Assembly (NCBI RefSeq): GCF_002155915.1 | Contig: NZ_MUME01000011.1 | Location: 1 to 64,000, forward strand | DNA: 64,000 bases | Reading direction: 5' to 3' | Origin: Streptomyces thermovulgaris | Lineage (GTDB): Bacteria > Actinomycetota > Actinomycetes > Streptomycetales > Streptomycetaceae | Position numbers and translations under genes: made by a program | Notes under the pieces: model-generated | What the model was told of the DNA's origin: nothing | Databases searched by the model: none | Seen by the model: only the letters and a program-made list of their open reading frames with translations | Shown: piece after piece, positions 2,650-17,216 of the stretch | Numbering within the stretch: the stretch's first letter is position 1 | How the letters are laid out: each line of letters opens with the position of its first letter

Positions 2650-4881
2650 ATGCTAGAGCGCGTGATCCGCATCCGGGGTGCCCGGACCCACAATCTGAAG
2701 AGTCTGGACGTGGACATCCCGCGCGGCCGGCTGGTCGTGTTCGTCGGGGTGTCCGGGTCGGGCAAGTCGTCGCTGGTGTTCGACACGATCGCGGCGGAGG
2801 CCGGTCATCAGCTCAACGAGACCTGTCCGCCGTTCGTCCGCAACCGGCTGCCGAAGTGGACACGTCCCGAGGCCGAGAGGATCGAGGGGCTCTCACCGGT
2901 GGTGGTGATCGATCAGCGCAGGATCGGCGGGAACGCCCGGTCCACGGTGGGAACGGTCACCGACGCCTGGACCCATCTGCGGCTGCTGTTCTCCCGCATC
3001 GGCACGCCGTACGTGGGCGAGTCGAACCACTTCTCCTTCAACGACCCCGCCGGCATGTGCCCGACCTGCTCCGGGCTCGGCGAGGTCGTGGTGAGCGCCG
3101 TCGAGCGGTTCCTGGACCTGGACAAGTCCCTTGCCCAGGGGGCGATCCTGCTGCCCGGCTTCGGCAACGGCGGCTACTGGTACTCCCAGTACGCCGACAT
3201 CGGTCTCTTCGACGCCGACACGCCGCTGCGCGACTGGACGGAGGCCGAGCGCCAGGCCCTGCTCCACGGCGGCGAGCACGCCGCGCGTCTGGGGACCAGA
3301 CCGCCCAAGGACTACGAGGGCGTCGTGGAGCGGTTCGAGCGGATCCACCTGCGTACGGCCGACGAGCTCTCCGACCGCAAGAGGGAGGTCATCGACCGGT
3401 TCACCCGTTCCGAGACCTGCCCCGAGTGCCACGGCGACCGTCTGAAGGAGGCCAGTCGCACCGCCACCGTCCTGGGCCGCACCATCGGTGAGATGGCCCG
3501 TATGGAGATCACTGAACTCGCCGGTCTCCTGGAACAGGTGACCGACCCCGCCGTCGCCCCGGTCGTGGCCGCTCTCCGGGACCGGCTGCAGGCCATGATC
3601 ACCATCGGGCTCGGGTACCTGCACCTCGGCCGCGCCACCACCAGCCTGTCCGGCGGGGAGTCGCAGCGGATCAAGACCGTCAAGCACCTCGGCAGCAGCC
3701 TCGTCGAGATGCTCTACGTCTTCGACGAGCCCACCGTCGGCCTCCACCCGCAGGACGTCGCCTCCATGACCGCCCTGCTGCGGCAGCTGCGCGACAAGGG
3801 CAACACCGTCCTCGTCGTCGAGCACGACCCCGCCGTCATGGCGATCGCCGACCAGATCATCGAGATCGGGCCCGACGCGGGTGCCGGCGGAGGGCAGCTG
3901 GTCTTCCAGGGCACCTTCGACGAGCTCCGGGCGGCACGGACGGCCACGTCCGCCGCTCTGGACGAACGTGCGCCGGTCACCACCGGCCCGCGGACGGCCA
4001 CCGGCACGGTCACGGTGGTGAACGCCACTCGCAACAACCTCAGAAACCTGACCGTCGACATACCCACCGGAGTCCTCACCGTCCTCACCGGAGTCGCCGG
4101 ATCGGGCAAGTCCAGCCTCGCGGCGGAACTGGTCGACCAGCACGACGCGGTCGTGATCGACCAGAGGCCGGTCGGCACCAACCGCCGTTCCACCCCTTTG
4201 ACCTACACCGGTGCCGCCCCCGCCGTCCGCAGGCTCTTCGCCCGGCGCAGCGGCCTGCCGGCCGGCCTGTTCAGCGCCAACTCCGAGGGCGCCTGCCCCG
4301 ACTGCAAGGGGCTGGGCGTCGTCTACACGGACCTCGCCTTCATGGACGGCCAGGAGACCGTCTGCGAGACCTGCCGGGGACGGCGGTTCACCGACGAGGT
4401 GCTCCGCCACCGGGTCGACGGGCTGTCCATCGCGGACATCGACGGCCTGACCGTCACCGACGCCCTCGAGCGGCTGCCGGACCGGCGGATCCACGAGGCG
4501 CTTCTTCCCCTGCGGCGGGTCGGGCTCGGCTACCTCCGCCTCGGCCAGCCGCTCACCACGCTGTCCGGCGACGAGTGCCAGCGTCTCAAGACGGCCAGGG
4601 AGCTGCGCGAGGCCACCGCACCGACGCTCTACGTCCTCGACGAACCCACCACGGGCCTGCACCCGCGCGACATCGCCGTCCTGCTCGACGTCCTCGGCCA
4701 CCTGCTGGACCGGCGCCACACCGTGGTCGTCATCGAGCACAACCTCGACGTCGTCCGGCGCGCGGACTGGCTCATCGACCTCGGCCCGGGCCCCGGCCGG
4801 CACGGCGGCCGGATCCTCTACCAGGGACCGGTCGCCGGGATCGAGGGCACCGCCACCGCCGCCGCCCTGAAGGGCTCATGA
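2650..4881 (+). CDS. UvrA-like ABC ATPase (short UvrA paralogue)
   Basis: 743 residues with two UvrA-type ABC modules. The first Walker A is GVSGSGKSS at residues 33-41, and a second, GVAGSGKSS, lies near residue 480. Zinc-finger pairs are visible (CPTCSG, CPECHG, CPDCKG, CETCRG). The first signature is canonical LSGGESQR, but the second reads LSGDECQR, with Asp replacing the second Gly. Full UvrA is about 950 residues; this one lacks room for a UvrB-binding insert. Such short paralogues are annotated as excinuclease subunit A-like and are linked to DNA-damage or drug tolerance rather than core repair. It has almost no leader: CTCCTAG lies just upstream of the ATG. The stop overlaps the MerR stop in the palindrome TCATGA. 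Confidence 0.88.
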   Translation: MLERVIRIRGARTHNLKSLDVDIPRGRLVVFVGVSGSGKSSLVFDTIAAEAGHQLNETCPPFVRNRLPKWTRPEAERIEGLSPVVVIDQRRIGGNARSTVGTVTDAWTHLRLLFSRIGTPYVGESNHFSFNDPAGMCPTCSGLGEVVVSAVERFLDLDKSLAQGAILLPGFGNGGYWYSQYADIGLFDADTPLRDWTEAERQALLHGGEHAARLGTRPPKDYEGVVERFERIHLRTADELSDRKREVIDRFTRSETCPECHGDRLKEASRTATVLGRTIGEMARMEITELAGLLEQVTDPAVAPVVAALRDRLQAMITIGLGYLHLGRATTSLSGGESQRIKTVKHLGSSLVEMLYVFDEPTVGLHPQDVASMTALLRQLRDKGNTVLVVEHDPAVMAIADQIIEIGPDAGAGGGQLVFQGTFDELRAARTATSAALDERAPVTTGPRTATGTVTVVNATRNNLRNLTVDIPTGVLTVLTGVAGSGKSSLAAELVDQHDAVVIDQRPVGTNRRSTPLTYTGAAPAVRRLFARRSGLPAGLFSANSEGACPDCKGLGVVYTDLAFMDGQETVCETCRGRRFTDEVLRHRVDGLSIADIDGLTVTDALERLPDRRIHEALLPLRRVGLGYLRLGQPLTTLSGDECQRLKTARELREATAPTLYVLDEPTTGLHPRDIAVLLDVLGHLLDRRHTVVVIEHNLDVVRRADWLIDLGPGPGRHGGRILYQGPVAGIEGTATAAALKGS

Positions 4882-6009
4882 GGGCCGCCTCCGCGGGCCG
4901 GGGCGCCGCGGCATCCCGGCCCGCGTGCCCTCAGGATCCCTCCGCCTGCCCCGGGGGTCCTCCGCCTGCCCTTGGGAGTCCTCGCCGGCCCCGTCCTCGG
5001 GGGAGCGCTCGTCCAGGACTGCGGCGAAGGCCGAGGCGACGAGGGCGACAGCACGGTCGTCGTCGTGGGCCAGACGTCGCAGGACCTCCCGCGCGGCGGT
5101 CCCCGGCAGCTCGACCAGTGCCTGGGTCAGCCGTATCCGTGTCGCACGGTCCGCGGTGGGCGCGGCGAGTTCACCGGTCAGCGCGGCCAGAACCCGGTCC
5201 GCGCACCCGGGGTCCTGGGACAGCGTTCCCAGGGCCTCCGCCGCGTCGACGTCGTGAAGGCCCTCGACCACCATGGCGACGAGTGCCGGCACGGCCTCGG
5301 TCCTCCCCCGCCTGCCCAGGGCCAGGGCGGCATGTCCGCGCACCGTCGCATCGGGGTCCTCGAGCGCGTCCGCCAGCACCGCGGTCGTCTCCGGGGTCTC
5401 GGGCAGCTCGGCGATCGCCAGCACCGCGCGCCGCCGGGTCCCGGCGTCCTCCGAACGCATGCCGGCGGCCAGTTCCGCCGCGCCGTCGCCGCCCGACCGG
5501 GCCAGCGCCCAGCGCAGCGCGCCCGCGACATGGGGGTCGGTTTCGCGCAGGACCGCCTCGGCCAGCAGCCCGGCGGGGGCCGACGCGCCCTCCGGGCGGG
5601 TCAGGACGGCCTGCTGCCTGCGCGCGGCGCTGGCCGAACCGAGCCCCTGCATGAGCGCGACGATGCGCAGGACGTCCTGCCAGTCGGCGGGCCCGGACGC
5701 ATCGATCGCGCGGAGCCGCTCGAGCAGCTCCCGTTCCCGTTCCAGGCGCTCCTCCGTCCACCGGATGAGGTCGCCGACCAGGGCGGACGGGGTGAAGTCC
5801 GGGTCCTCCAGCGCACGCCCGATCTGTTTGAGCGAGAGCCCGAGGGAGCGCAGGCTCTCCACGTGGAAGATCCTTCGGACGTCCTCGGCGGAGTACTCGC
5901 GGTAGCCGCCCGCGGTGCGGCCGGTCGGCCGCACCAGGCCGAGAGCGTCGTAGTGCCGGAGCATCCGTGCGCTCACTCCCGAGCGGCGGGCCACCTCGCC
6001 GATCAGCAT
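4876..6009 (-). CDS. MerR-family regulator fused to HEAT repeats
   Basis: 377 residues. Residues 1-70 are a classic MerR winged helix (MLIGEVARRSGVSARMLRHY, then GGYREYSAEDVRRI) followed by the dimerisation helix (LRSLGLSLKQIGRAL). From about residue 140 the protein is an alpha-solenoid of HEAT/PBS-lyase-type repeats (DPHVAGALRWALARS, DAGTRRRAVLAIAELP, DPDATVRGHAALALGRRG). This replaces the usual small effector domain, so the signal is probably a protein partner. The partner candidate is the HEAT protein encoded 12 bp upstream in the same operon. The extreme C-terminus is Arg/Glu/Pro-rich and likely disordered. The final codons overlap the convergent UvrA-like gene by 6 bp. Confidence 0.88.
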   Translation of the reverse strand: MLIGEVARRSGVSARMLRHYDALGLVRPTGRTAGGYREYSAEDVRRIFHVESLRSLGLSLKQIGRALEDPDFTPSALVGDLIRWTEERLERERELLERLRAIDASGPADWQDVLRIVALMQGLGSASAARRQQAVLTRPEGASAPAGLLAEAVLRETDPHVAGALRWALARSGGDGAAELAAGMRSEDAGTRRRAVLAIAELPETPETTAVLADALEDPDATVRGHAALALGRRGRTEAVPALVAMVVEGLHDVDAAEALGTLSQDPGCADRVLAALTGELAAPTADRATRIRLTQALVELPGTAAREVLRRLAHDDDRAVALVASAFAAVLDERSPEDGAGEDSQGQAEDPRGRRRDPEGTRAGMPRRPGPRRRPS

Positions 6010-6021
6010 GCCACGACCTCC

Positions 6022-6774
6022 TCAGCCGCCTCGTTCTCCCTCCTCCACCTTCGCAGCCTCCGCCGGCCTGGTGGTCCCTGCGGCCGCGGCGGCGTCGGCG
6101 GCAGCGGCACGCTCCGGACCGAGGGCGACGATGCGCCTCGCCTCGTCGACGGCCGCGTCGAAACCGGCCTCCGGGTCCTTGCGCAGCAGCTCGGTGGCCC
6201 GGGCGTGCTCGGCCACCACCGGGTCGGGGCTCCTCATGGCCCGCTCCAGGACGGGCCTGGCCACCTCACCGAGGTCGACGAGGGCCCGGCTCAGGCTCAG
6301 CCGCACCTCCCGGTCGCCCCGGCCGAGCTGTGCGACCAGTTCACCGGCCAGGTCCTTCCTCGCCTCCTCGGGTGCGAGAACGACCGCGACGCGCCACGCG
6401 GTCCGCGCGATCTCGTCGTCGGCGTCGCGCAGCATGTCACGGGTGATCCAGGCCCACGCCCTCCTGTCGCCGATCTTGGAGAGCGTGTGCAGCGCCTGGC
6501 TGCGGGCCTGAGCGCACGCGGAGTCGAGCTCCCGGCGGATCCGGGGCAGGGTGATCTCCGGCGGGAGACGGGTCAGCGCCCAGGAGAGCATGTCCCGCAC
6601 GAAGAAGTCCGGCTCGACCGCGCACCGCTCGACGAGGGGCTCCAGGAAGCCTGGGTCGGGGTCCGAGCCGGCCGCCAGGGCCGCCCGAAGCCGGACCGAC
6701 GAGTTCTCGGCGCCCAGGGCGTCGAGCACGCGGGCACGCTGCGGGGTTCCGTTGACCGGTTTGATCGCAACCAC
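6022..6774 (-). CDS. HEAT-repeat protein upstream of the MerR-HEAT regulator
   Basis: About 250 residues made almost entirely of HEAT repeats (ARVLDALGAENSSVRLRAALAAG, FFVRDMLSWALTRLPPE, ARSQALHTLSKIGDRRAW, GDREVRLSLSRALVDLG). No catalytic motif is seen, so it is likely a protein-binding scaffold. It is first in a two-gene operon with the MerR-HEAT regulator. The start is uncertain: the GTG at 6774 overlaps an AGGAGG (6779-6774) that would normally act as a ribosome site. The next codons GTT GCG ATC offer no standard start at ideal distance, so either a short-leader GTG or a non-canonical start is used. Confidence 0.82.
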   Translation of the reverse strand: MVAIKPVNGTPQRARVLDALGAENSSVRLRAALAAGSDPDPGFLEPLVERCAVEPDFFVRDMLSWALTRLPPEITLPRIRRELDSACAQARSQALHTLSKIGDRRAWAWITRDMLRDADDEIARTAWRVAVVLAPEEARKDLAGELVAQLGRGDREVRLSLSRALVDLGEVARPVLERAMRSPDPVVAEHARATELLRKDPEAGFDAAVDEARRIVALGPERAAAADAAAAAGTTRPAEAAKVEEGERGG

Positions 6775-7366: not shown

Positions 7367-9169
7367 TCAGACGAGCAGTTGAGTGGCCGCGAGGCGCCGG
7401 TACAGGGCGTCCCGGACAAGCAGTTCCTCGTGGGTGCCGGTGGTTCGTACCCTGCCGGACTCCATGACCACGATGCGGTCGGCCGTCGTCACGGTGGACA
7501 GGCGGTGCGCGATGACAAGCACCGTCGTCTGCCGTGCCACTTCCAGGATGACGTCGCGCAGGGCCTGTTCGTTGACTGCGTCGAGGTGGGACGTGGCCTC
7601 GTCCAGGAGGAGCAGCCGGGGTCCACGCAGCAGGGCACGCGCGATGGCGACACGCTGGCGTTCACCGCCGGACAGCCTGGCTCCCCGGTGTCCGACGTGG
7701 GTATCGAGTCCCCTCGGCAGGGATCGTACGAACGCGTCGAGACGTGTGCGGACGAGTACGTCATGGAGTTCCTCGTCGGTGACATCGGGCGCGGCGAGCA
7801 GGAGGTTGTCGCGCAGACTGCCGGAGAGTACGGGGGCGTCCTGCTCGATGTAGCCGATGTCAGCGCGGAGTTCCGGCAAGGGGATGTCCAGGATGTCCCG
7901 GCCGTCGAGGAGCACTCTGCCCGAGGTGGGCTCGTGGAAGCGTTCCAGCAGGGCGAAGAGGGTGGACTTCCCCGCACCCGAAGGTCCGACGACGGCGGTC
8001 ATCCCTTTGCCGGGCACCGTGAAGTCGACACCGCGGTGGACGTCGGGCAGGTCAGGGCGGTAGCGGAAGACGACTTTCTCGAAAACGACGGTGGCCGGGG
8101 GCCTGGTCGGAGCAGTTGTGGTCGTCCCGCGCCGCACCGCCGGAGCGTCGTCCTCCGTCTCCAGCAGATCCACCTCCCGCAACCGGGCGACGGCCGCCGC
8201 CCCCACCTGGAACTGGGTGGTGGCCTGAATGAGCTGGGAGACAGGCTCCGTCAGGTAGAAGAGGAAGAGCAGGAAGGCGACGAGGGTGGACACGTCGATG
8301 GCACCCGATGCGACCCGGGCTCCCCCGGCTCCCAGTACGGACAGGAACGACAACTGGACCGAGAGCCCTGCCGATGTACCCATCAGCGCCTGCCATCTGG
8401 CCGCTTGTATGCCGTGCCGCCACGCCTCGTCGGCCGCTCGGCGGACGGCGGCGGTCTCGCGTTCCTCCGCCCCCGACGCCTTCACTGTCCTCAGTGCCCC
8501 CAGAGCACGTTCGAGTGTCGCGCCCATGGCACCCACCGACGCCTGCGCCCGGACAGTGGCGCGGGAGATGCGTGGCATGGCGGTGGTGACCACCACGCTG
8601 ACCAGGACGGTCACCCCGACGGAGACGCACAGCAGCACGGGGTCGAGCAGACCCATCATGACCAGCACCCCGACAATGGTGAGAATGCCGTTGGCCGCCG
8701 AGACCACCGACTGGGTGGTGACCTGCCGCAGCAGTGTGGTGTCCGAGGTGACGCGTGCCAGGAGGTCCCCGGGTTCCATGCCCTCGAAGACGGGCATCTT
8801 CAGACGCAGCAGCCTGCCGATGAGCCGATGGCGGGCACGCAGCACCACCGACTCGGCAGCGTACGCGAGGACGTACTGGCTGAGCGCCTTGAGCGCGGCA
8901 CCCAGCAGAACGAGCCCGGACAAAAGGGCCAGCGTGCCCGCGACACGGTCGTGTCGTGAGAGGTCCTCGATCAGTTCCTTCGCCGCAAGCGGCTGGAGAA
9001 GGACTGCCGCCGCCCCCGCCAGCCCGAGCAACCCGCCCAGAGCTATCCGGCGGCGGTGCGGACGCATGTGCGCCAGCAGAACACGGCCGGTCGAGCGGAA
9101 CGGTACGGGCGACGGTTCCGTCACCGCCCTCCTGGTGCGGGGGCCCGTGCCACGCGCTCGTGTGAGCAT
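7367..9169 (-). CDS. lasD: ABC exporter, fused permease/ATPase, of the lasso cluster
   Basis: 600 residues: a six-helix type I exporter membrane domain (about residues 35-320), then a nucleotide-binding domain. The latter has Walker A GPSGAGKST, signature LSGGERQRVAIARALL, Walker B RLLLLDEATSHLD and the H-loop VIAHRLSTV. Lasso-peptide D proteins have this architecture and pump the mature peptide out, giving export and self-immunity. It is the last gene of the minus-strand operon running from 13025, and starts 13 nt after the oxidoreductase stop. No N-terminal C39 peptidase domain is present, consistent with leader removal by the separate B2 protease. The assignment to export of this peptide is inferred from position. 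Confidence 0.88.
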   Translation of the reverse strand: MLTRARGTGPRTRRAVTEPSPVPFRSTGRVLLAHMRPHRRRIALGGLLGLAGAAAVLLQPLAAKELIEDLSRHDRVAGTLALLSGLVLLGAALKALSQYVLAYAAESVVLRARHRLIGRLLRLKMPVFEGMEPGDLLARVTSDTTLLRQVTTQSVVSAANGILTIVGVLVMMGLLDPVLLCVSVGVTVLVSVVVTTAMPRISRATVRAQASVGAMGATLERALGALRTVKASGAEERETAAVRRAADEAWRHGIQAARWQALMGTSAGLSVQLSFLSVLGAGGARVASGAIDVSTLVAFLLFLFYLTEPVSQLIQATTQFQVGAAAVARLREVDLLETEDDAPAVRRGTTTTAPTRPPATVVFEKVVFRYRPDLPDVHRGVDFTVPGKGMTAVVGPSGAGKSTLFALLERFHEPTSGRVLLDGRDILDIPLPELRADIGYIEQDAPVLSGSLRDNLLLAAPDVTDEELHDVLVRTRLDAFVRSLPRGLDTHVGHRGARLSGGERQRVAIARALLRGPRLLLLDEATSHLDAVNEQALRDVILEVARQTTVLVIAHRLSTVTTADRIVVMESGRVRTTGTHEELLVRDALYRRLAATQLLV

Positions 9170-9182
9170 GGCGGAGCAGCCC

Positions 9183-10250
9183 TCAGACCGCGATCCGGGC
9201 AGAGGCCGCGCCGAGCCTGTGCCGTACGAGGGGGAAAACCTCGGTGGCGAGCCGCTCCAGGTTGCGCAGCACGTCGTCGGTGTCTGCCTCGGCCTCCACC
9301 TGGCACATCACCCGTGTGCAGCCGGAAGTGCGGATGTGGTGCGTCAGCCGTTCGGCACACGTCTCGACGGATCCGACGGGGTGCGTCGCCATAAGCCTGT
9401 CCGCGAGGAGTCCGACGTTCGCCGCGGAAACCGGTGGCGGTGCCGAGACGGTATCCCTCAGAAGGCGGCTGGGGTGGTTGTTGAGGGAAAGGATGAACCG
9501 CGCGCGGTCGTGCATGAGCCGCCTGGCATCCTCGGGGTCGTCACAGACCTGCGCGAACACGGCGAACGCGTGGCCCATCGCCGGCTCCGGCCGCCCGCCG
9601 CGCAACCGGTGGCGTTCGTAGAGGGCCACCATCTCCGCCTTGGCCTCGGCGCTCTTGTCGACGAACAGCATGAGGGGCAGCCCCCGGTCGGCGGCGAGCT
9701 CGATCGACGCGGGAGAACCGGCGGCCACGTACACCGGCGGGCCGGGCGGGTTCCGTACGGGCGGCGTGAGCCGGACGGCGGAGAGGGCCGGATCCGCGGA
9801 CACCTCGCCGCGCAGCGCAGCCAGGAGGCGATCCAGCGGTTCGGCCAGCCCGGCTCGCCAAGCCGCGAGCCCGGAACCCAGCAGGTCGTACTCGACGCCG
9901 GGGAAGCCGCGCCCTACGCCGAGAAGAAACCTGCCGCCCGACAACTGGTCCAGCAAGGCCGTTTGTTCCGCCGTGTGCACCGGCGAGTGCAACGGCAGCA
10001 CCGTCACCGCGGTGCCCACATGCAGGCTCTCGGTCTTCGCCAGCAGGTACGCGGCGAGAGTGAGCGCCGAGGGGTTGACAGCGGTGTCGAGGAAGTGGTG
10101 CTCGGTCACCCACACGTCGTCCAGACCCAGCTCCTCCGCCCGCCGTGCCACCTCCACGGTGCGGGCCAGGACATCCGCCACCCCCTGGCCCGGGTGGCGG
10201 TCAGTGGCCAGCATGACGCCGAACCTGAGGTCTTCCTCCCTCGCCTTCAT
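9183..10250 (-). CDS. LLM-class (luciferase-like) flavin/F420-dependent oxidoreductase in the lasso operon
   Basis: 355 residues of the bacterial-luciferase TIM-barrel fold: VADVLARTVEVARRAEELGLDDVWVTEHHF near the N-terminus, then LHVGTAVTVLPLHSPV and LSGGRFLLGVGRGFPG, all hallmark segments. Members use FMNH2 or F420 for mono-oxygenation or hydride transfer. The start is the ATG at 10250, which overlaps the lasB2 stop (ATGA) and follows GGAGGGACTC. That position between protease and exporter implies translation with the core lasso genes. Core lasso biosynthesis needs only A, B, C and usually D, so this is a candidate tailoring enzyme acting on the peptide, or less likely a detoxifying passenger. 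Cofactor and substrate cannot be read from sequence. Confidence 0.87.
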   Translation of the reverse strand: MKAREEDLRFGVMLATDRHPGQGVADVLARTVEVARRAEELGLDDVWVTEHHFLDTAVNPSALTLAAYLLAKTESLHVGTAVTVLPLHSPVHTAEQTALLDQLSGGRFLLGVGRGFPGVEYDLLGSGLAAWRAGLAEPLDRLLAALRGEVSADPALSAVRLTPPVRNPPGPPVYVAAGSPASIELAADRGLPLMLFVDKSAEAKAEMVALYERHRLRGGRPEPAMGHAFAVFAQVCDDPEDARRLMHDRARFILSLNNHPSRLLRDTVSAPPPVSAANVGLLADRLMATHPVGSVETCAERLTHHIRTSGCTRVMCQVEAEADTDDVLRNLERLATEVFPLVRHRLGAASARIAV

Positions 10251-10681
10251 GAGTCCCTCCGGTCTCCGGTCGCGGCGGGCACCCGCATGAGCGTCTGAAA
10301 GTACTGAACGTCCTCGCCCTCGCCGACGGGGCAGCCGGCCACTTCGACCCAGGCATGGGCACGGAACGGCTGCGTCCGTACACCTGTGCACCAGTCCGGC
10401 CAGTGCCCTCTGGCACGGCACAGCAGCACGGTGGCCACGGAGCGCTGCAGACAGCCCTGGCCCGCGCACTTGCTGCTCACCGACACCACCGCTCGGCGGC
10501 TGCGCAGGGCCTCCGCCCGGGTGGCGGGGCGCGCACCGCGCGCGACAACGCTCAGGACGCGACGGAGTCTGGCAGGCGGGAGCCTGATGAGGAACCATGC
10601 CGCAGTCACAGCGGCTCGGGCGAGCAGACGTGTGGCGAACGGAACGTGCGTCCGCCGCTCCGGCACGACGGGGAAGCTCAC
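10247..10681 (-). CDS. lasB2: Lasso peptide B2 leader peptidase (transglutaminase-like)
   Basis: 144 residues. The fold is the transglutaminase-like cysteine protease of lasso clusters: a basic, hydrophobic N-terminus, a segment with nucleophile Cys77 (GCLQRSVATVLLCR), and PFRAHAWVEV with catalytic His109. B2 removes the leader from the precursor so that the new N-terminus can be cyclised. The third triad residue is not confidently assigned; acidic residues follow at 121-124. The start is GTG 10681, overlapping the lasB1 stop (GTGA); the stop overlaps the oxidoreductase start. It must work with the RRE protein from the preceding gene, since B1 and B2 are split here as in most actinobacterial lasso clusters. 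Confidence 0.9.
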   Translation of the reverse strand: MSFPVVPERRTHVPFATRLLARAAVTAAWFLIRLPPARLRRVLSVVARGARPATRAEALRSRRAVVSVSSKCAGQGCLQRSVATVLLCRARGHWPDWCTGVRTQPFRAHAWVEVAGCPVGEGEDVQYFQTLMRVPAATGDRRDS

Positions 10682-10935
10682 CTCGTCACCAGCCCGGCCT
10701 CAGTGAGACGCTTCAGAAGCGCATCGACATCGGCGGTCACGCGCGTGATGTCCAGTGAGAAGCGGGCACTGAGTTCGTCGACGATCTCCGCAACCTCCTT
10801 GCCCTGCCGCAGGGACCGTACGACCGCGGCGCCGGTGGTGTTGAGCATCCAGTAGCGGCCGGTGGTTTCGTGGAGCAGCACCATGCCGTCGTCGGTTTCG
10901 GCCGCCGCTACATGAGGGGCGAGTGAGTAGCTCAT
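10678..10935 (-). CDS. lasB1: Lasso peptide B1 / PqqD-like RiPP recognition element
   Basis: 85 residues with a PqqD-like winged-helix fold: HVAAAETDDGMVLLHETTGRYW (beta hairpin), LNTTGAAVVRSL, then EIVDELSARFSLDITRVTADVDALLKRL. B1 proteins bind the YxxPxL leader motif of the precursor and deliver it to the B2 protease. The ATG at 10935 overlaps the cyclase stop (ATGA) and follows AGGAAGGAG at good spacing, so it is preferred to the upstream in-frame start 57 bp earlier. The gene is downstream of the cyclase and upstream of B2, the standard A-C-B1-B2-D order of Streptomyces lasso operons. Confidence 0.92.
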   Translation of the reverse strand: MSYSLAPHVAAAETDDGMVLLHETTGRYWMLNTTGAAVVRSLRQGKEVAEIVDELSARFSLDITRVTADVDALLKRLTEAGLVTR

Positions 10936-12764
10936 GCGGCTCCTTCCTGTTGGCGCATACGTGTCCGCGCCGCTTCGACCGAGCGCAGCCACACTTCGCA
11001 GGCGAGTGTGGTGACCACAGGGATGAACGTCCGTGAGACGGGATGCGGTGCCAGGAGTGCGGCGCGGACGGCGGTGTCGTCCACCAGGCCCAAGCGGGCC
11101 AGGCGCATGTCCTCGGTGAGTGCGAGCAGTTCAGCCTTGTGGTGTCGCGCCCCGGCGTACACCTCGGCGCTGGCCTCGCCCTTGGTGGTGCGGTCCAGTA
11201 GCGCGTCCGGCACGATCTCCCTCATGGCAGTCGCCAGAACCGGCTTGGTGCGCTCGGCTTCGACGCGGTCGGCGAGGCGCACGGAAAGGGCGGCGCTCAC
11301 TACCTGGTCGTCCAGGTAGGGAGCGTGGTATGCCACCCCGAACCGGGAAGTGAGACGATTGGTGAGGCGAATCTTCGTCCCGCATTGGCGCACGGCCTGA
11401 AGGACTTCGTGCTGCGCGGCCTCGGGAGAGTGGGGCGGGGTTCCCCGGGCGGCCGCCTCGCGAAGGAGCCCGGCGCACATCTCGACCGCCTCGGGGGTTG
11501 CCCAAGGCGGCAGCCTGGGGTGGGCTCCCCAGCCGGTGAAGGGCTCGGTGGGCCCGCCGACGGGCTTGGTCAGAGACATGGACGCCGTGATGAGCCACTG
11601 GCGGTAGGACGGTTTGCGGAGCAAGTTGCTCAACATCGCACCGAGCGGCCAGCGGTACATGCTGCGGGCGACCCGCAGATCTCGCACAGACCGGAGCCCC
11701 TCGCTGTGGGCAAGGGCGTGGTAGAAGGAGGGCGCCGGGCTGAAGAGTTCGTCGCCTCCGTGACCGGTGAGCTGGAGAGGCACGGCGCGGGCGGCCAACT
11801 GCCGGGCGACACAAGCCACGACTGCTTTCACCCGGCTCCAGGGATATGGGGCCTCCAGGTCTTCGTCATAGGCGAGTTGGTCAGTGAACGAGAGGGGAAG
11901 CCCCGCACTCGGCAGTACGACGAACTCGGCGCCGGGAAGGAATGCGGCGGCGCGCAGCGCCCACTGGGCGTCGTCGTGGGCAGGGTCCACGGCCTCCCTG
12001 CGTATCGTCACCAGCCGCCGGCAGCCCTTTTGCCGACTGGCGAGGAAGGCGAGACTCGTGGAGTCCATGCCGCCGGAGAAGTCGCAACCGAGGGCCGGAG
12101 TGTTCCTCGCCCGTGCAGCAACCGCGTCGTCGAGCGCATTCCGCACCCGGCGCGCGCCTTCCGCGAGCGTCAGCTCGGCGGACGGAGGGCTCCACCACCG
12201 GACGGCGCGATGGGCACCGTCGGGCCGTATCCGGAGGTAGTGGCCGGGGGCGAGGCATTCGACACCCCGCCACACCGTGTATCCGCTCAGCGGCCAGGGC
12301 TGCTGCGACAGCAGGTGCCCCACCAATGCCTGCGCGTCGATGTCGCCGCCGATCCTGGCAGCAAGTGTGTCCGGACGGTCGGCCGCGCACGTCACCCCGC
12401 CGACCGTGGCGTGGAAGACCTCGTGAACGCCGGACAGGGAGCCCTGCACACGCACCTCACCGTCGAAGGAGACGATCGCGTGATAGCTTCCGGGCACGGA
12501 CCGGAGGAAGGCATCCAGTGCAGCGACGTCTCCGCTGCCCGAGAGCGCGCGGAGCAGCTCCGCCGAGGTCGTTCCGAAACAGCCGAGCAATGCCAGGCGT
12601 TTCCGGCCCACTGAGGCCGTCAGCATCTCCCCGGCATTCCACGCACCCACGATCCATGGGCGCCCGGAGGCATGGGGGATCACCTGCGTCTGTTCAAGGC
12701 CCGGGCTCGTCGCGCGAGCCACCGCCGCGCCGTCCTGGTTGTCGGGAAGAACGAGGAACCCCAC
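10932..12764 (-). CDS. lasC: Lasso cyclase (asparagine synthetase homologue)
   Basis: 610 residues. The N-terminal third (VGFLVLPDN...) is a glutamine-amidotransferase-like domain. The C-terminal part is an ATP-pyrophosphatase fold with PP-loop SGGMDSTSLAFLAS. Lasso cyclases adenylate the side-chain carboxylate of an Asp/Glu in the core and join it to the core N-terminus, making the macrolactam ring around the tail. GTG 12764 is chosen because homologues begin with this short strand and a G-rich Shine-Dalgarno-like run precedes it. An in-frame start 81 bp upstream would add 27 residues of no family similarity. It lies 135 bp after the precursor gene, separated by a hairpin, and overlaps lasB1 by 4 bp. 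Confidence 0.92.
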   Translation of the reverse strand: MGFLVLPDNQDGAAVARATSPGLEQTQVIPHASGRPWIVGAWNAGEMLTASVGRKRLALLGCFGTTSAELLRALSGSGDVAALDAFLRSVPGSYHAIVSFDGEVRVQGSLSGVHEVFHATVGGVTCAADRPDTLAARIGGDIDAQALVGHLLSQQPWPLSGYTVWRGVECLAPGHYLRIRPDGAHRAVRWWSPPSAELTLAEGARRVRNALDDAVAARARNTPALGCDFSGGMDSTSLAFLASRQKGCRRLVTIRREAVDPAHDDAQWALRAAAFLPGAEFVVLPSAGLPLSFTDQLAYDEDLEAPYPWSRVKAVVACVARQLAARAVPLQLTGHGGDELFSPAPSFYHALAHSEGLRSVRDLRVARSMYRWPLGAMLSNLLRKPSYRQWLITASMSLTKPVGGPTEPFTGWGAHPRLPPWATPEAVEMCAGLLREAAARGTPPHSPEAAQHEVLQAVRQCGTKIRLTNRLTSRFGVAYHAPYLDDQVVSAALSVRLADRVEAERTKPVLATAMREIVPDALLDRTTKGEASAEVYAGARHHKAELLALTEDMRLARLGLVDDTAVRAALLAPHPVSRTFIPVVTTLACEVWLRSVEAARTRMRQQEGAA

Positions 12765-12859
12765 TTGCCCCCCCACTGGCCGGATGGACGGAATTCGTCC
12801 AGGAACTCTGTGTGTGCCGGGCGGCGTGCGCCACCGGGCACACACGACGCCTCCCCCAG

Positions 12860-12899: not shown

Positions 12900-13025
12900 T
12901 CAGCAGCCCAGGAACCAGCACTCGTTGTAGTCGTCCCAGCCCCAGGTGCCACGGCTCAGCGTGAGTTCCGCGAAGTCCCCGATCTCGACCAGGGCGGGGG
13001 GCTCGTAGACCGTCTCGTCCTTCAT
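12900..13025 (-). CDS. lasA: Lasso peptide precursor, predicted class IV (LP2006-like)
   Basis: 41 residues. ATG 13025-13023 follows GAAGGGA and the stop is TGA 12902-12900. The leader (residues 1-23) carries Y7-x2-P10-x-L12-x3-G16-x-F18, the canonical B1-recognition motif. Thr22 sits at the -2 position expected for lasso leaders, so cleavage after Leu23 gives the core SRGTWGWDDYNECWFLGC (18 residues). Ser1 would link to Asp8 (8-residue ring) or Asp9. Cys13 and Cys18 both lie in the tail, which matches class IV. LP2006 (GRPNWGFENDWSCVRVC) has R2, W5, G6, an acidic residue at 8 and Cys13 in the same places. Cutting before Gly26 with a 7-residue ring is a weaker alternative, because it would place Ser at -2. 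The precursor is first in the operon. Confidence 0.93.
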   Translation of the reverse strand: MKDETVYEPPALVEIGDFAELTLSRGTWGWDDYNECWFLGC

Positions 13026-13262
13026 GACGTTCCCTTCTTCTCGGCATCTGTGCGAAAACGCCGCCGGACACGCCACGATCAGCGCTTCGGCGGACAGAAG
13101 TGAATCTATGGACTCAGGGGTCCCGGATGCCTGAGTCCGTGGTCCCGCTCATGTCCCGGTTCTGTTCTCGGCGTGGACAGGGTGCGAGCGTCGATCACAG
13201 CATGGCAGCAGTGGCCGACGGGTCGCCCTCACTGTCCTCCGGACCGAAAGGACGGGCCTTTC
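13026..13262. promoter_or_regulatory. Divergent promoter region lasA / Tat protein
   Basis: This 237-bp region separates the lasso precursor gene (minus) from a Tat-exported protein gene (plus). It contains an inverted repeat with arms GGACTCAGG (13110-13118) and CCTGAGTCC (13130-13138). Their centres are 20 bp apart, about two helical turns, which suits a dimeric regulator such as the LuxR-type response regulator at 14922. The -10/-35 boxes are not clear enough to place. Confidence 0.55.
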
Positions 13263-14090
13263 ATGGATGCTGCGCGACGGAACGGGTACGGGCGCAGGCA
13301 GGCACTGCGCGGTGCGCTCGGTATCGTGGGCGCAGCCGGACTGATGCTGCCGGCTTCCAGCCGGCTCGCCCGGGCGGCGGACTTCCGACCGGATGTCCAC
13401 GGCCTTCCTCCTGTCCCCGGGATGCTCGGGGACCGTCTGGCCAACGAGTTCTGGTACCAGTTCGACGAGGCCACGTACTTCCGGCAGACGCCGCAACTCG
13501 CGGACGCCTATGCGGCGGTTGCCGCCCATGTCGGCGGGAATCCGTTGAAAGGCGTCCGCGATGCCTGGGTGCGCACAGGGACGGCTGCCGGGTATCCGGA
13601 GACCTACGCCGCCTTTCTGCGGCCGGTCCGTGAGCCACTGCGCGTGATTTCCGAGGTGCAGGTAGAGGTCTTCCGCTTCTACTACGGCCACCGCTACGAC
13701 CGGATCCTCACGGCCATGTCCTACTTCGCTCAGGGTGTGCTCTTCGACCCTCGTCGGGCACCGGTCCAGTCGGAGGTGCACACCATGGACGGGGACCCGC
13801 CCCTCGCCTACCACACGTGGCACGCCTACCAGTTCGCAAGTGTGCTGCTCGACATCGACCGGCGGTTCTGGAGGGCGATGATCCCCATCAACGGCTTCGC
13901 CTGGGCACTCCAGTTGATCGCCAGGCCGAATACCCGGAAGGTCAACCCGCCCCTCCCGCGGGAGACGGTGGCACGGGTGGCGGCGTCCTGGCTCCCGAAG
14001 AGCGTCCGGCGTGTCGACGCCGACCTCCTGGAGCTGTACCGTCCCGGGACATCGCCACGCACGGACGCCGCTTCGGGACAGCTCGGCTGA
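13263..14090 (+). CDS. Tat-exported protein of unknown function, paralogue A beside the lasso cluster
   Basis: 275 residues. The N-terminus RRQALRGALGIVGAAGLMLPA followed by ARAAD is a twin-arginine signal peptide with a likely cleavage site. ATG 13263 is preferred because AAAGGA lies about 10 nt upstream and the Tat motif follows at the right distance. The mature part shares many blocks with the protein encoded at 14095-14883: VPGMxGDRxANExWYQF, YAAFxxPVxxxLR, FxQGxLFDPR, VHTMD, YHTW, FAWAxQ and NPPLPxxTxxRxA. I do not recognise the family, and no catalytic motif is evident. Conserved Trp, Tyr and His residues suggest an enzyme or ligand-binding fold. It is divergent from lasA. Confidence 0.78.
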   Translation: MDAARRNGYGRRQALRGALGIVGAAGLMLPASSRLARAADFRPDVHGLPPVPGMLGDRLANEFWYQFDEATYFRQTPQLADAYAAVAAHVGGNPLKGVRDAWVRTGTAAGYPETYAAFLRPVREPLRVISEVQVEVFRFYYGHRYDRILTAMSYFAQGVLFDPRRAPVQSEVHTMDGDPPLAYHTWHAYQFASVLLDIDRRFWRAMIPINGFAWALQLIARPNTRKVNPPLPRETVARVAASWLPKSVRRVDADLLELYRPGTSPRTDAASGQLG

Positions 14091-14094
14091 CGGA

Positions 14095-14883
14095 TCAGCG
14101 GCGCGGCACCGTGTCCGGCGGAGCGGGAAACGACTGGAAAGCCGCATCGAGCTGCCGGGTGTTCGTCGGTAGCCAGGTACATGCCAAACGTCGCAGGGTG
14201 TCCGCGGGCAGTGGGGGGTTGATCTCGTCCATGGCCGGAAGGGCCGTGTTCTGAACCGCCCATGCGAACGCCAGCAGCGGAGCCATCCTCCGCCAACGGT
14301 CGGTGTCGATGCCGAGCAGCATCATCGCACGCATGAAGAGGTACCAGGTGTGGTACGCCGTCGGCGCCTCGCCCGGGCGGGCGTCCATGGTGTGCACTCT
14401 GAGCCCTACGCGTTCCCTCGGGTCGAACAGGGTTCCCTGACCGAAGAACGAGAACGCCTCCACCAGCCGCCGCCTTATCGGGTAGTACGTGTCGAAAACT
14501 TCCAATTGCACCCGCGAGAGGGTCCGCAGCGCCCGTGTCACCGGGGCCATAAAAGCGGCATAGTTACGGGGGTAATCGGGTTCCCTGTACATGGCGAACC
14601 AGTTTTCGCGCAGGGTCACCGGAAGGTTTCCGCCGAAGTGGCCGTTGATCTGCGCGTAGGCCTCCCTGACGTCAGCCGACTGCTCGTAAAGCGTCGCCAC
14701 GTTGAACTGATACCAGAGTTCGTTCGCCCGGCGGTCACCAGACATTCCAGGGACCTCGGGAAACTCTTCTCCGCGACGGTCCGCAGCGAAGGCGGTCGCA
14801 CCGCCCGCCGTGTACCCGGAGAGAACGAAGGCCCCCAGAGCGATCTGAAGAGCACGCCGCCTGCTGTGGTCCTGCACTGCCAT
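14095..14883 (-). CDS. Tat-exported protein of unknown function, paralogue B beside the lasso cluster
   Basis: 262 residues. ATG 14883 follows AGGAGGAAGA. The signal peptide has SRRRALQIALGAFVLSG and an AFAAD cleavage region, again Tat-like. It is clearly paralogous to the protein at 13263-14090 along the whole mature length, roughly one residue in three being identical, and the two genes are convergent with only 4 bp between their stop codons. It lies 38 bp downstream of the LuxR-type response regulator gene on the same strand and may be co-transcribed with it. Retention of two copies facing each other next to a lasso cluster suggests a paired or heteromeric extracytoplasmic function. The actual activity is unknown. 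Confidence 0.78.
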   Translation of the reverse strand: MAVQDHSRRRALQIALGAFVLSGYTAGGATAFAADRRGEEFPEVPGMSGDRRANELWYQFNVATLYEQSADVREAYAQINGHFGGNLPVTLRENWFAMYREPDYPRNYAAFMAPVTRALRTLSRVQLEVFDTYYPIRRRLVEAFSFFGQGTLFDPRERVGLRVHTMDARPGEAPTAYHTWYLFMRAMMLLGIDTDRWRRMAPLLAFAWAVQNTALPAMDEINPPLPADTLRRLACTWLPTNTRQLDAAFQSFPAPPDTVPRR

Positions 14884-14921: not shown

Positions 14922-15608
14922 TCACTTCCCCATTCCCGCTCTCCGAGCCCGGACCACCGCCATCGCCCTGTCGTGCACCTGGAGTTTTGCGAAGATGTGC
15001 GTCACATGATTGCGGACGGTCTTCTCCGAGAGAAAGAGATTCCGGGCGATTTCCCGGTTCCCCCAGCCTCGCGCCAGCAGGTCGAGAACTTCCCTCTCCC
15101 GTGAGGTGAGTTGCGGGAAAGCGAACTGCCCGCGCAGGTCGCGCACGCTGGAGAAGTACGCCCGCATTCGTGCCGCGACGACCGGACCGAACACCACCCC
15201 TCCGGCCGCCACCAGCCGGATCGCCCTCATCAGCTCGTCCCACGGTGTCGTCTTCTCCAGGAATCCGTGAGCGCCGGCACTCATGGCGGTGATCACGGAC
15301 TCGTCGGTCTCTTCCCCGGAGAGGACCAGGAGGCGCATGGGGCGGCCGCCCGACAACTCACCAGCAGCCTGCAGGAAATCACCTTCGGTCATACCGGATG
15401 ACTGCAAGTCCGCAAGGATCACGTCGGGGCGCATCCGAGGATTCTCCTCCAGCATGCGCAGCGCTTCTTCACCGGTCGACGCCTCACCGGTCAGTTCCAT
15501 GTCGGATTCGTTCCTCACTCCAACCCGAATTCCGGCCCGGAAGACCGGATACCCGTCCACGAGGAAAACCCGTACGACCGAGCGACGCTCCCGTACGTCA
15601 CACAGCAC
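14922..15608 (-). CDS. LuxR/NarL-type response regulator with degenerate receiver pocket
   Basis: About 228 residues. The receiver has VRVFLVDGYPVFRAG, where the usual Asp-Asp pair reads Asp-Gly, the phospho-acceptor-like Asp in VILADLQSSG, and Lys in FLEKTTPWDELMRAI. The C-terminus LTSREREVLDLLARGWGNREIARNLFLSEKTVRNHVTHIFAKL is a full LuxR helix-turn-helix. The start is uncertain: GTG 15608 begins close to the receiver, whereas ATG 15752 would add 48 residues with A/T-rich third positions that look non-coding. No sensor kinase gene is adjacent. Its place beside the lasso genes makes it a candidate pathway regulator. The altered acidic pocket suggests weak or no phosphorylation control. Confidence 0.82.
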   Translation of the reverse strand: MLCDVRERRSVVRVFLVDGYPVFRAGIRVGVRNESDMELTGEASTGEEALRMLEENPRMRPDVILADLQSSGMTEGDFLQAAGELSGGRPMRLLVLSGEETDESVITAMSAGAHGFLEKTTPWDELMRAIRLVAAGGVVFGPVVAARMRAYFSSVRDLRGQFAFPQLTSREREVLDLLARGWGNREIARNLFLSEKTVRNHVTHIFAKLQVHDRAMAVVRARRAGMGK

Positions 15609-17216
15609 ACCGCGGTCACACCGTGAATTTACCGCCAGGCCGAATTCGCCATTTCTCCGATAACGTCCGGCCGAATCAATGTGACGCACTGTTGCGGAAT
15701 CCTGCGCACTACCGCACCCTCGCTCCCCCTGCCGCATCTCTAATTCATTCATGGTATGGATGTTAGTACAGCGACTCAACAACAACAGGGATCAATACCG
15801 GCCAAGCTTCCCACCCGGATGCTTGACTCCGCTTGCCGGCCGGTACGGGTTCACGTACGCCTACTGCTGACCGGGCTCACCGGTCATGCGCTGGAGGTTT
15901 CCATGATTCAGCCGCGACTTCACGACCTTTCCCGGGAGACATTCCCGTGTTCCCTTTTCCGGCCGGCCCGCATCCCCGAGACGGGATTTCTACCGCCCTA
16001 TGGCCCTTCCCCTGGCGGAGCGGGACGCATGGAACCGTCAACCCCGTGCAGAACGGTCCGGCCCCCGCAAACCTCCCGGCTGAAGATCCTGTCCGTCCTT
16101 TGGCAGGCTGCTCGAGCAGACGAGTGGGCAATGCCGGTGCCCTGCTCGTTCACTCACCCGGCTGGTTGTCCCATTCATTCCCTGAACTCTTCTGAGATAC
16201 GGGCAGGGCAGGTCGGAGTGCGAGCCGGCAGTTCCGGGCGAGGTCGTTGTCTTTGATGCCCCGTGAGGAACTTGAAGCGTTGCGTGTGTTGTGAGGGGTT
16301 GCAGAAGAAGGGCGCCTGAGCACGGCGGACGTCCGCCAGATGCTCTGCGCGGCGTATGTCTGGGCAGTGAACCGGAGCACTGCCTCGCTCCCGATGCCTC
16401 CCCCACCAGCGCTCCCGCCCCGACCAGTAGTTCCGGTGTATTTCCGGGTCAGGACGTTCTCCGGGCACCCCTCGCATCGCCCGGCGGCTCCCCCAGCGCC
16501 GCGTGGACACCTTGATCAAAGCCGCTGGCCCAGTTGTGCGCTTCGGCCGGGAACTTGGCGCAGCCGCGGGAGAAGAGCCGGTGCTCTGCCCGGATCGGCG
16601 CGCGCACTCCGGAGGATCGACGCCGAAAGCCGACCGGAACGAGATGCCGGCAGGCACAGGCCGCAGGGGCGCTGTATCGGACAACCTCCCGCAGACCGAT
16701 CCGGTCCTCCCGGGGCCTGCTCCAGCGAAGTGCTCAGCCTCGGCTGCTGGTCCGGGCCTGAACGTGTCCGTCTGGGCATGCCCCCCCCACCTGGCCCGCC
16801 TCGATGCGACAGCCGTGCGAGTCGCGTATGCAGCAGTGCGACTCGGCGCGACGGTCGAGGCTGCCGGGGCCACGTCCCGGGCTCAGGTGAGCGCGCGATG
16901 CGTGCGCGACCGTCATACCTTGACCGTAGGGGCACCCGGAGCGGCCCTTCGTGCCCCTCAGGAGGTGTATGCGCGGCGTGACCGGCCCCGAGGCGGTCCG
17001 ATGCTCCCCTCTATGAGGGGTGCGGCCGTTCGGAACAGCCCCTGGCCTCACGGCGATCTCAGGAATCGCCGATGACGGAGGTCCATGACGAGAACGGAAT
17101 CCCACGGTGACAGGGGTGCTCTCCCCGCAAGCCGGTTCGCGACCGGGCCGGCGAGTCCTGGATGCAGCGCCACCGCACAACCGCGGTCCTCACCTCTTGA
17201 CACGGAGGACAGCCTC
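15609..17216. other. 1.6-kb region without a convincing gene
   Basis: Between the response regulator and the SDR gene no frame shows a recognisable domain, good ribosome site and consistent codon use. Composition is less G/C-biased at third positions than the neighbours, and several overlapping frames look degenerate, as in decayed genes. One inverted repeat is visible: AGGGGCAC (16928-16935) and GTGCCCCT (16951-16958). It marks the edge of the lasso region and may be scar sequence from acquisition, but I could not identify an insertion sequence or attachment site. Confidence 0.5.

Follow-up and report, generated by a model that had tools for sequence, protein, structure and literature searches.

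An LLM-class flavin oxidoreductase gene takes the slot of MauE behind the B2 peptidase gene in one lineage of LP2006/felipeptin-type lasso peptide clusters

Introduction

The published cores of the felipeptins and of LP2006 have been tabulated together, and the felipeptins are entered there with a ring and a disulfide as their only modifications (PMC12427821). The felipeptin cluster encodes FilE, named a 'flavin-dependent oxidoreductase'. A link between FilE and the disulfide has been offered as speculation only, and the passages of a 2022 review that treat FilE report no test of it (PMC9266682). For class I lasso peptides, a disulfide oxidoreductase function is tabulated for HumE, a DoxX protein (PMC7168211), and a role of MauE in disulfide formation has been put forward as a speculation in the context of methylamine dehydrogenase (PMC7794033). 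In a passage of a 2026 review, the origin of lasso peptide disulfides is called unknown (PMC13352647).

Here, a lasso operon of Streptomyces thermovulgaris was investigated in a stretch of 64,000 nucleotides (contig NZ_MUME01000011.1, positions 1 to 64,000), referred to below as the window. The cluster is an additional FilE-type class IV lasso cluster bearing an LLM-class (luciferase-like) oxidoreductase gene. Clusters of this kind were already known; the new element is the alternation of the LLM gene with a MauE gene, which was not found in the open papers searched.

Results

Layout of the operon

The operon lies on the minus strand in the order A-C-B1-B2-LLM-ABC. The precursor gene A (12900..13025, 41 aa) was recognised by the lasso leader model NF033521 (5.1e-10) and by alignment with other precursors. 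It is followed by the cyclase gene C (10932..12845, Asn_synthase domain), whose start codon is putative, by B1 (10678..10935, NF033530), encoding a leader-binding protein with a PqqD-like RRE, and by B2 (10247..10681, NF033537, 4.6e-33), encoding a leader peptidase of the Transglut_core3 type. Precursor, RRE, leader peptidase and cyclase genes are thus all present, which makes the locus a lasso cluster. The LLM gene comes next as an intact ORF (10250..9183, minus strand) with an ATG start and no internal stop, and its product of 355 aa matched PF00296 Bac_luciferase at 3.8e-60, with 204.3 bits against a gathering cut-off of 27.9, so that it belongs to this superfamily. The last gene, D (7367..9169), encodes an ABC exporter in which membrane and ATPase domains are fused according to Pfam. 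Coordinates and sequence revealed stop-start overlaps at C/B1, B1/B2 and B2/LLM. The first-pass annotation had placed the LLM gene between the B2 protease and the ABC exporter with an ATGA overlap at its start; ORF coordinates and the Pfam and NCBIfam matches agree with this position, and the ATGA shared with the B2 stop is seen in the sequence.

Several other genes of the neighbourhood were noted. A LuxR-type response regulator (14925-15785, minus strand) has close relatives beside the lasso clusters L009 (69%) and L018 (64%) and is a possible cluster regulator. Beyond the exporter, a protein with an ABC_tran match (2650-4878, plus strand) reads like a UvrA relative, and a MerR regulator with HEAT repeats (4879-6774, minus strand) adjoins another HEAT-repeat gene. 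Two paralogous proteins, 46% identical and with Tat-like signals by reading, are encoded at 13260-14090 (plus strand) and 14098-14868 (minus strand); they are the only two copies in the genome and both flank the lasso operon. The protein at 13260-14090 matched nothing in Pfam or NCBIfam at 1e-3 and no sequence in the PDB at 0.1, and its all-helical model (pLDDT 83.9) had no PDB fold match at 0.001. Relatives of the pair (E <= 1e-8) were found near the lasso clusters L008, L009 (two copies), L018, L199, L201 and L202, and also near L203 (two copies), which is not a class IV cluster; none were found at this threshold in the remaining lasso loci searched. The pair is possibly part of a lasso-linked family of secreted proteins.

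Precursor and predicted core

The precursor reads MKDETVYEPPALVEIGDFAELTLSRGTWGWDDYNECWFLGC. A lasso core begins two residues behind the leader Thr. From this rule, and from the same start in the felipeptin and LP2006 precursors, the core is predicted to be SRGTWGWDDYNECWFLGC. It would have Asp8 as the ring acceptor and Cys13 and Cys18 in the tail. The presence of three Trp and one Tyr, pointed out in the first-pass annotation, holds for this core, which also has the two Cys that had gone unmentioned. With two Cys in its tail, none in the ring and the Asp acceptor at position 8, the core is predicted to be of class IV and of the LP2006/felipeptin type, and it lines up with related precursors, among them the ones that contain the LP2006 and felipeptin cores.

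Thirteen cores from ten LLM-bearing clusters were compared, two each coming from L016, L200 and L204. All of them have Gly6, an aromatic residue at position 7 (W, F or Y), Asp or Glu at position 8 and both tail Cys (Cys13 with Cys17 or Cys18). Trp5 was absent from 4 of the 13, Trp14 from 6 and Tyr10 from 9. The earlier suggestion that the enzyme acts on Trp or Tyr is weakened by this comparison, since Trp5, Trp14 and Tyr10 vary while the tail Cys are kept in all 13 cores. Residue 1 of the predicted core is Ser in the window, Asp in L008 and L009, Gln in L018 and Gly in the other LLM-linked cores; it thus varies in the Streptomyces group of the window despite having to form the ring amide.

Distribution of the LLM gene

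Within the family of the window, a close LLM (E <= 1e-70) occurred in 4 of 297 genomes, the window's own included, and in all four it was beside lasso genes. Among 394 genomes of the class, two had an LLM at 1e-60, the window's own genome and G116. A contig scan matched 13 LLM loci. Five were in lasso clusters (L008, L009, L016, L017 and L018), six, about 50% identical, lacked lasso genes within the DNA read (L010-L015), and two were distant; L006 is the same stretch of Embleya DNA as L017. A search of plasmids gave no match at 1e-40.

When clusters obtained by searching two families for precursors are included, nine lasso clusters have the LLM gene immediately after B2 (the window, L008, L009, L016, L018, L051, L052, L200 and L204); their hosts are Streptomyces, Saccharothrix and further relatives. 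A tenth locus, L017, holds a precursor, B1, the LLM and a cyclase of which only part was recognised; having no recognisable B2, it appears to be a remnant and was left out of the slot count given below, its core being kept in the core comparison. In L009 of S. huasconensis the LLM gene (8001-9064) is split over two frames in the draft assembly, and one piece of it was used in the tree.

The ten lasso LLMs formed one clade with support 99/98 in a tree of 10 lasso rows and 20 other rows. Outside it fell L010-L015, L002, which is a paralogue in the window's own genome, and LLMs at a greater distance. Genes around the LLM were called roughly in three of these non-lasso sister loci (L010, L012 and L014), and no partner common to them was seen. 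The LLM gene of the window appears to be under purifying selection (dN 0.23, dS 0.66, dN/dS ~0.35 against L008 over 354 codons, NG86), and LLM divergence tracks cyclase divergence (r = 0.80 for 28 pairs from 8 clusters, L009 entering with its partial LLM). The survey of lasso clusters proposed earlier, when run, thus found the gene kept at the same place in one class IV lineage. The LLM is a conserved component of one LP2006/felipeptin-type operon lineage and is coupled to the biosynthetic genes; the same place in nine clusters bears out that it is a real accessory gene and no bystander.

LLM and MauE alternate behind B2

The control clusters came from several searches. A cyclase search in 150 relatives gave 30 genomes with a match at 1e-60, the window's own included, from which 46 other clusters were read. 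Further stretches were added from a precursor search in the 394 class genomes (40), from two families (15) and later (3); in the class precursor search, 2 of 48 rows (G315 and G538), which were weak matches within long frames, were left out. Before the last three stretches were added, C and B2 were recognised in 88 clusters, of which 9 had the LLM, 14 had MauE and 65 had neither; the 14 comprise 12 clusters of the class IV type and 2 of class I. The expectation that core lasso biosynthesis does not need such an enzyme is in line with this count, because 65 of the 88 clusters have neither the LLM nor its slot partner MauE. The stretch behind B2 was read for at least 2.5 kb in 61 of these 65.

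A total of 22 clusters of the LP2006/felipeptin type were readable behind B2, and all 22 held one of the two genes: the LLM in 9 and MauE in 13 (L129, L130, L190, L191, L193, L194, L195, L197, L198, L199, L201, L202 and L209). For 9 of these, the identification of MauE comes from Pfam PF07291, and for the other 4 from a sequence match. Two more clusters with a fitting core type, L192 and L196, are outside this count because their contigs end before B2. The 13 MauE clusters yielded no member of the lasso LLM clade, and within the DNA read none of the nine LLM clusters showed a MauE gene, the contig of L018 ending inside the LLM gene. About 4 kb past its LLM, the L017 remnant contains a stretch with weak similarity to MauE (36% over 63 aa, E 2.7e-4). 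Counted from where the B2 stop codon ends, the start codon has an offset of -3 in 6 of the 9 LLM clusters, in one of them only if TTG is taken as the start, and in 8 of the 12 MauE clusters tested. The LLM hence fills the slot that is held by the MauE membrane protein in the sister class IV lineage. On the cyclase tree, one change was enough to separate the LLM rows from the MauE rows, and the swap was accordingly taken as a single event. Independent swaps were looked for on this tree and not found, and monophyly of the LLM rows was not rejected (p-AU 0.167).

The two genes occur with cores of the same kind. The exact felipeptin A1 and A2 cores were found with the LLM in L204 and the exact LP2006 core with MauE in L197, and the cores of L017 (LLM) and L130 (MauE) are identical at 14 of 18 residues. 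According to the first-pass annotation, related clusters with the same core but lacking the gene would speak against a role of the LLM on the peptide. Near-identical class IV cores without it do exist (L130 compared with L017), but MauE fills the slot there, and the objection applies only in part. Since L204 has the exact felipeptin cores with an LLM behind B2, its LLM is almost certainly FilE, to judge from cores, position and annotation. The LLM of the window shares the clade of this felipeptin-cluster enzyme and the position directly behind B2, and it is almost certainly of the FilE type.

The exporter also differed between the groups. It was a fused ABC protein in 7 of the 9 LLM clusters by an automatic test and in L204 by Pfam, L018 being truncated; in the class IV MauE clusters an ATPase-only match was obtained in all 12 tested. 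Clusters with neither gene had 33 fused and 8 ATPase-only exporters, and in 23 none was seen.

Among the 65 clusters with neither gene, no LLM match was obtained at 1e-3, and no core of the LP2006/felipeptin type was found, 43 of them giving a precursor at 1e-3 and 22 none; precursors of that type all score 4e-11 or better with the model of that type. At least two core Cys were present in 7 of the 65. In three of these, L137, L138 and L143, the Cys pair lies in a very long, Gly-rich tail and the cores are formally class IV; L072 and L131 are class III-like, L053 has both Cys in the ring, and L134, a class I cluster, is cut by the contig end. MauE was present in the three other class I (two-disulfide) clusters, L071 and L139 (by Pfam) and L211 (by sequence match). 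For pandonodin, also of class IV, no such gene exists according to the entry in a review (PMC9266682). The clusters with paired Cys and neither gene oppose the view that every disulfide lasso peptide needs an LLM or MauE.

We noticed a second LLM gene near seven clusters with GRPxWGFE or closely related cores, namely the truncated L192 and six of the 13 MauE clusters (L193, L194, L209, L199, L201 and L202). It is divergent upstream of A in four of the seven; in the other three it lies on the opposite strand, a few kb downstream. The two of the seven that were scanned belong to the MsnO8 family (TIGR03558, about 395 bits). Lasso LLMs aside, no such gene was found in the other lasso loci at 1e-15.

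Cofactor class and fold of the enzyme

The closest solved relatives of the LLM by sequence were luciferase alpha chains (8cbb, 7.8e-42; 1brl, 1.8e-34). An AlphaFold2 model built from 14 rows (pLDDT 81.0, pTM 0.83) also had 8cbb as its best fold match (3.4e-24, TM 0.82), with F420 enzymes ranking lower. In an ungapped part of the alignment, His44, His45, Cys106 and Arg107 of LuxA correspond to His51, His52, Gly113 and Arg114 of the LLM, and His51, His52 and Arg114 were invariant in 14 aligned proteins. In LuxA, His44 is catalytic and Arg107 binds phosphate. The LLM remained below the cut-off of the F420 models among the best 25 of 29 models, TIGR03619 coming closest with 89.9 against 166.9 bits; it was also below that of the MsnO8 family TIGR03558 (125.9 against 166.95 bits) and of the NCBIfam luciferase alpha model (125.9 against 600 bits). 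A LuxA/FMN-like rather than F420-like enzyme is therefore favoured from sequence and model, and an F420 enzyme as the likelier reading was ruled out by the model scores and the fold ranking. No flavin reductase was found among the window operon genes scanned with Pfam, so that FMNH2 would come from elsewhere.

The LLM contains Cys only at 236, 298, 311 and 316 and no CxxC motif. A redox-active pair of Cys298 and Cys311 was considered and dropped, since both residues, though conserved, are also present in the five non-lasso relatives aligned and they lie at opposite ends of helix 295-309 in the model.

Discussion

The reading that we tentatively prefer, at somewhat under an even chance, is that the FMN-dependent LLM oxidises the tail cysteines and so drives or guards the disulfide, and that MauE serves the same end in the sister lineage. 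It is suggested by the LLM being kept with two-Cys tails and by the MauE redox protein in the sister slot; the nine clusters and the L017 remnant that carry the LLM all have cores with two tail Cys. By its likeness to LuxA, the LLM would be a cytosolic enzyme dependent on FMNH2 and O2, the FMNH2 being delivered by a reductase encoded elsewhere, and it would oxidise both tail Cys, thereby driving or guarding a Cys13-Cys17/18 disulfide. MauE would act to the same end at the membrane. As a possible route, a flavin hydroperoxide would transfer oxygen to one thiol, and the sulfenic acid formed would be attacked by the second thiol. The narrower proposal, in which the LLM itself makes the disulfide through the flavin hydroperoxide and replaces the MauE-type membrane redox protein in one lineage, is doubtful. 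A dithiol relay within the LLM is disfavoured by the lack of a CxxC motif.

Several observations count against oxidation of the cysteines. The cytosol is reducing, and we are aware of no LLM enzyme for which disulfide formation has been demonstrated. The LP2006 peptide carries a disulfide even though its cluster lacks the LLM. The split between LLM and MauE is a single change on the cyclase tree and the exporter type changes along with it, which weakens the case further, as do the clusters with paired Cys and neither gene, the weak MauE-like stretch of L017 and the second, MsnO8-type LLM near MauE clusters. In class I, where DoxX or thioredoxin genes were knocked out, sviceucin production survived the loss of sviF and MS-271 production that of mslE or mslF; Cys variants of stlassin gained disulfides (PMC9266682).

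A tailoring monooxygenase, rather unlikely in our estimate, would hydroxylate carbon at aromatic residue 7, at a Trp or in the Asp/Glu region of the precursor before ring closure, as with CanE and canucin. Its fold and cofactor class would be those of monooxygenases, the aromatic residue 7 is present in all 13 LLM-linked cores, and the known lasso hydroxylation and epimerisation are described as taking place on the linear precursor with the assistance of B1 (PMC9266682, in the passages on these reactions). The variable Trp5, Trp14 and Tyr10, by which a Trp/Tyr hydroxylase was set back as first choice, and the nearly identical core that occurs without the LLM speak against hydroxylation, as does the tabulation of felipeptins A1 and A2, the cores of the LLM-bearing L204, with ring and disulfide only (PMC12427821). 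It is unlikely, too, that the LLM leaves the peptide alone and serves in redox housekeeping for export by the fused exporter or in self-protection of the producer. Within the LP2006/felipeptin core type the LLM does go with the fused exporter, and according to the same review, removal of sviF, a thioredoxin gene of class I, hurt export and left the disulfides unaffected (PMC9266682); however, 33 clusters have a fused exporter and no LLM, so that the association is one of core type.

Reduction or another redox change of the peptide, comparable to what happens to dehydrated residues in lanthipeptides, appears quite improbable: LLM enzymes are tied to such reductions in the accounts of lanthipeptide and daptide clusters (PMC7794033, PMC12338566), but no dehydratase was found among the operon genes scanned, and the LLM stayed below the F420 cut-offs mentioned above. 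A chance neighbour that is merely co-transcribed is hardly credible. LLM genes are common, with ten LLM-like matches in the genome of the window; against this stand the same slot in nine clusters, the single clade with support 99/98, the purifying selection and the 65 clusters with neither gene and no LLM match, and this candidate was ruled out on the last three grounds.

The presence of either an LLM or MauE in each readable LP2006/felipeptin-type cluster turns a loose guess into a sharp and cheap question, with swaps between the lineages possible. If oxidation of the cysteines is what takes place, a chemistry would be added to the luciferase fold and lasso peptides would have a dedicated disulfide-forming enzyme. 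If the LLM is a hydroxylase instead, felipeptin-type peptides deserve re-examination.

Comparison with known systems

The LLM of the felipeptin cluster (L204) is 49% identical to that of the window, is located directly behind B2 and belongs to the same LLM clade. The window differs from the felipeptin cluster in having one precursor, a new core whose first residue is Ser, and a single fused exporter gene where the felipeptin cluster has two exporter genes. The LP2006 cluster (L197) resembles the window in core architecture and in the gene order A-C-B1-B2, but has MauE behind B2 and an ATPase-only exporter match. The class I DoxX/MauE clusters of the sviE, mslE and humE type are alike in that disulfide lasso peptides go with a dedicated redox gene; they are unlike the window in having MauE about 2 kb behind B2, an unrelated core and a cyclase of another clade.

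Beyond lasso peptides, LuxA (PDB 8cbb, 3fgc) resembles the LLM in giving, with 8cbb, the best match of both sequence and fold and in the equivalents of His44, His45 and Arg107, whereas its Cys106 is replaced by Gly113 and its substrate is an aldehyde where a peptide is expected for the LLM. LanJC, SprOR and TfDapJ of lanthipeptide and daptide clusters are likewise LLM-fold enzymes recruited to ribosomal peptide clusters, and a replacement of one enzyme type by another, of ltnJ by sprOR, is reported there too (PMC7794033, in its section on these genes). Unlike the enzyme of the window, they are linked to the reduction of dehydrated residues, and LanJC is described in the relevant passage as F420H2-dependent (PMC9266682).
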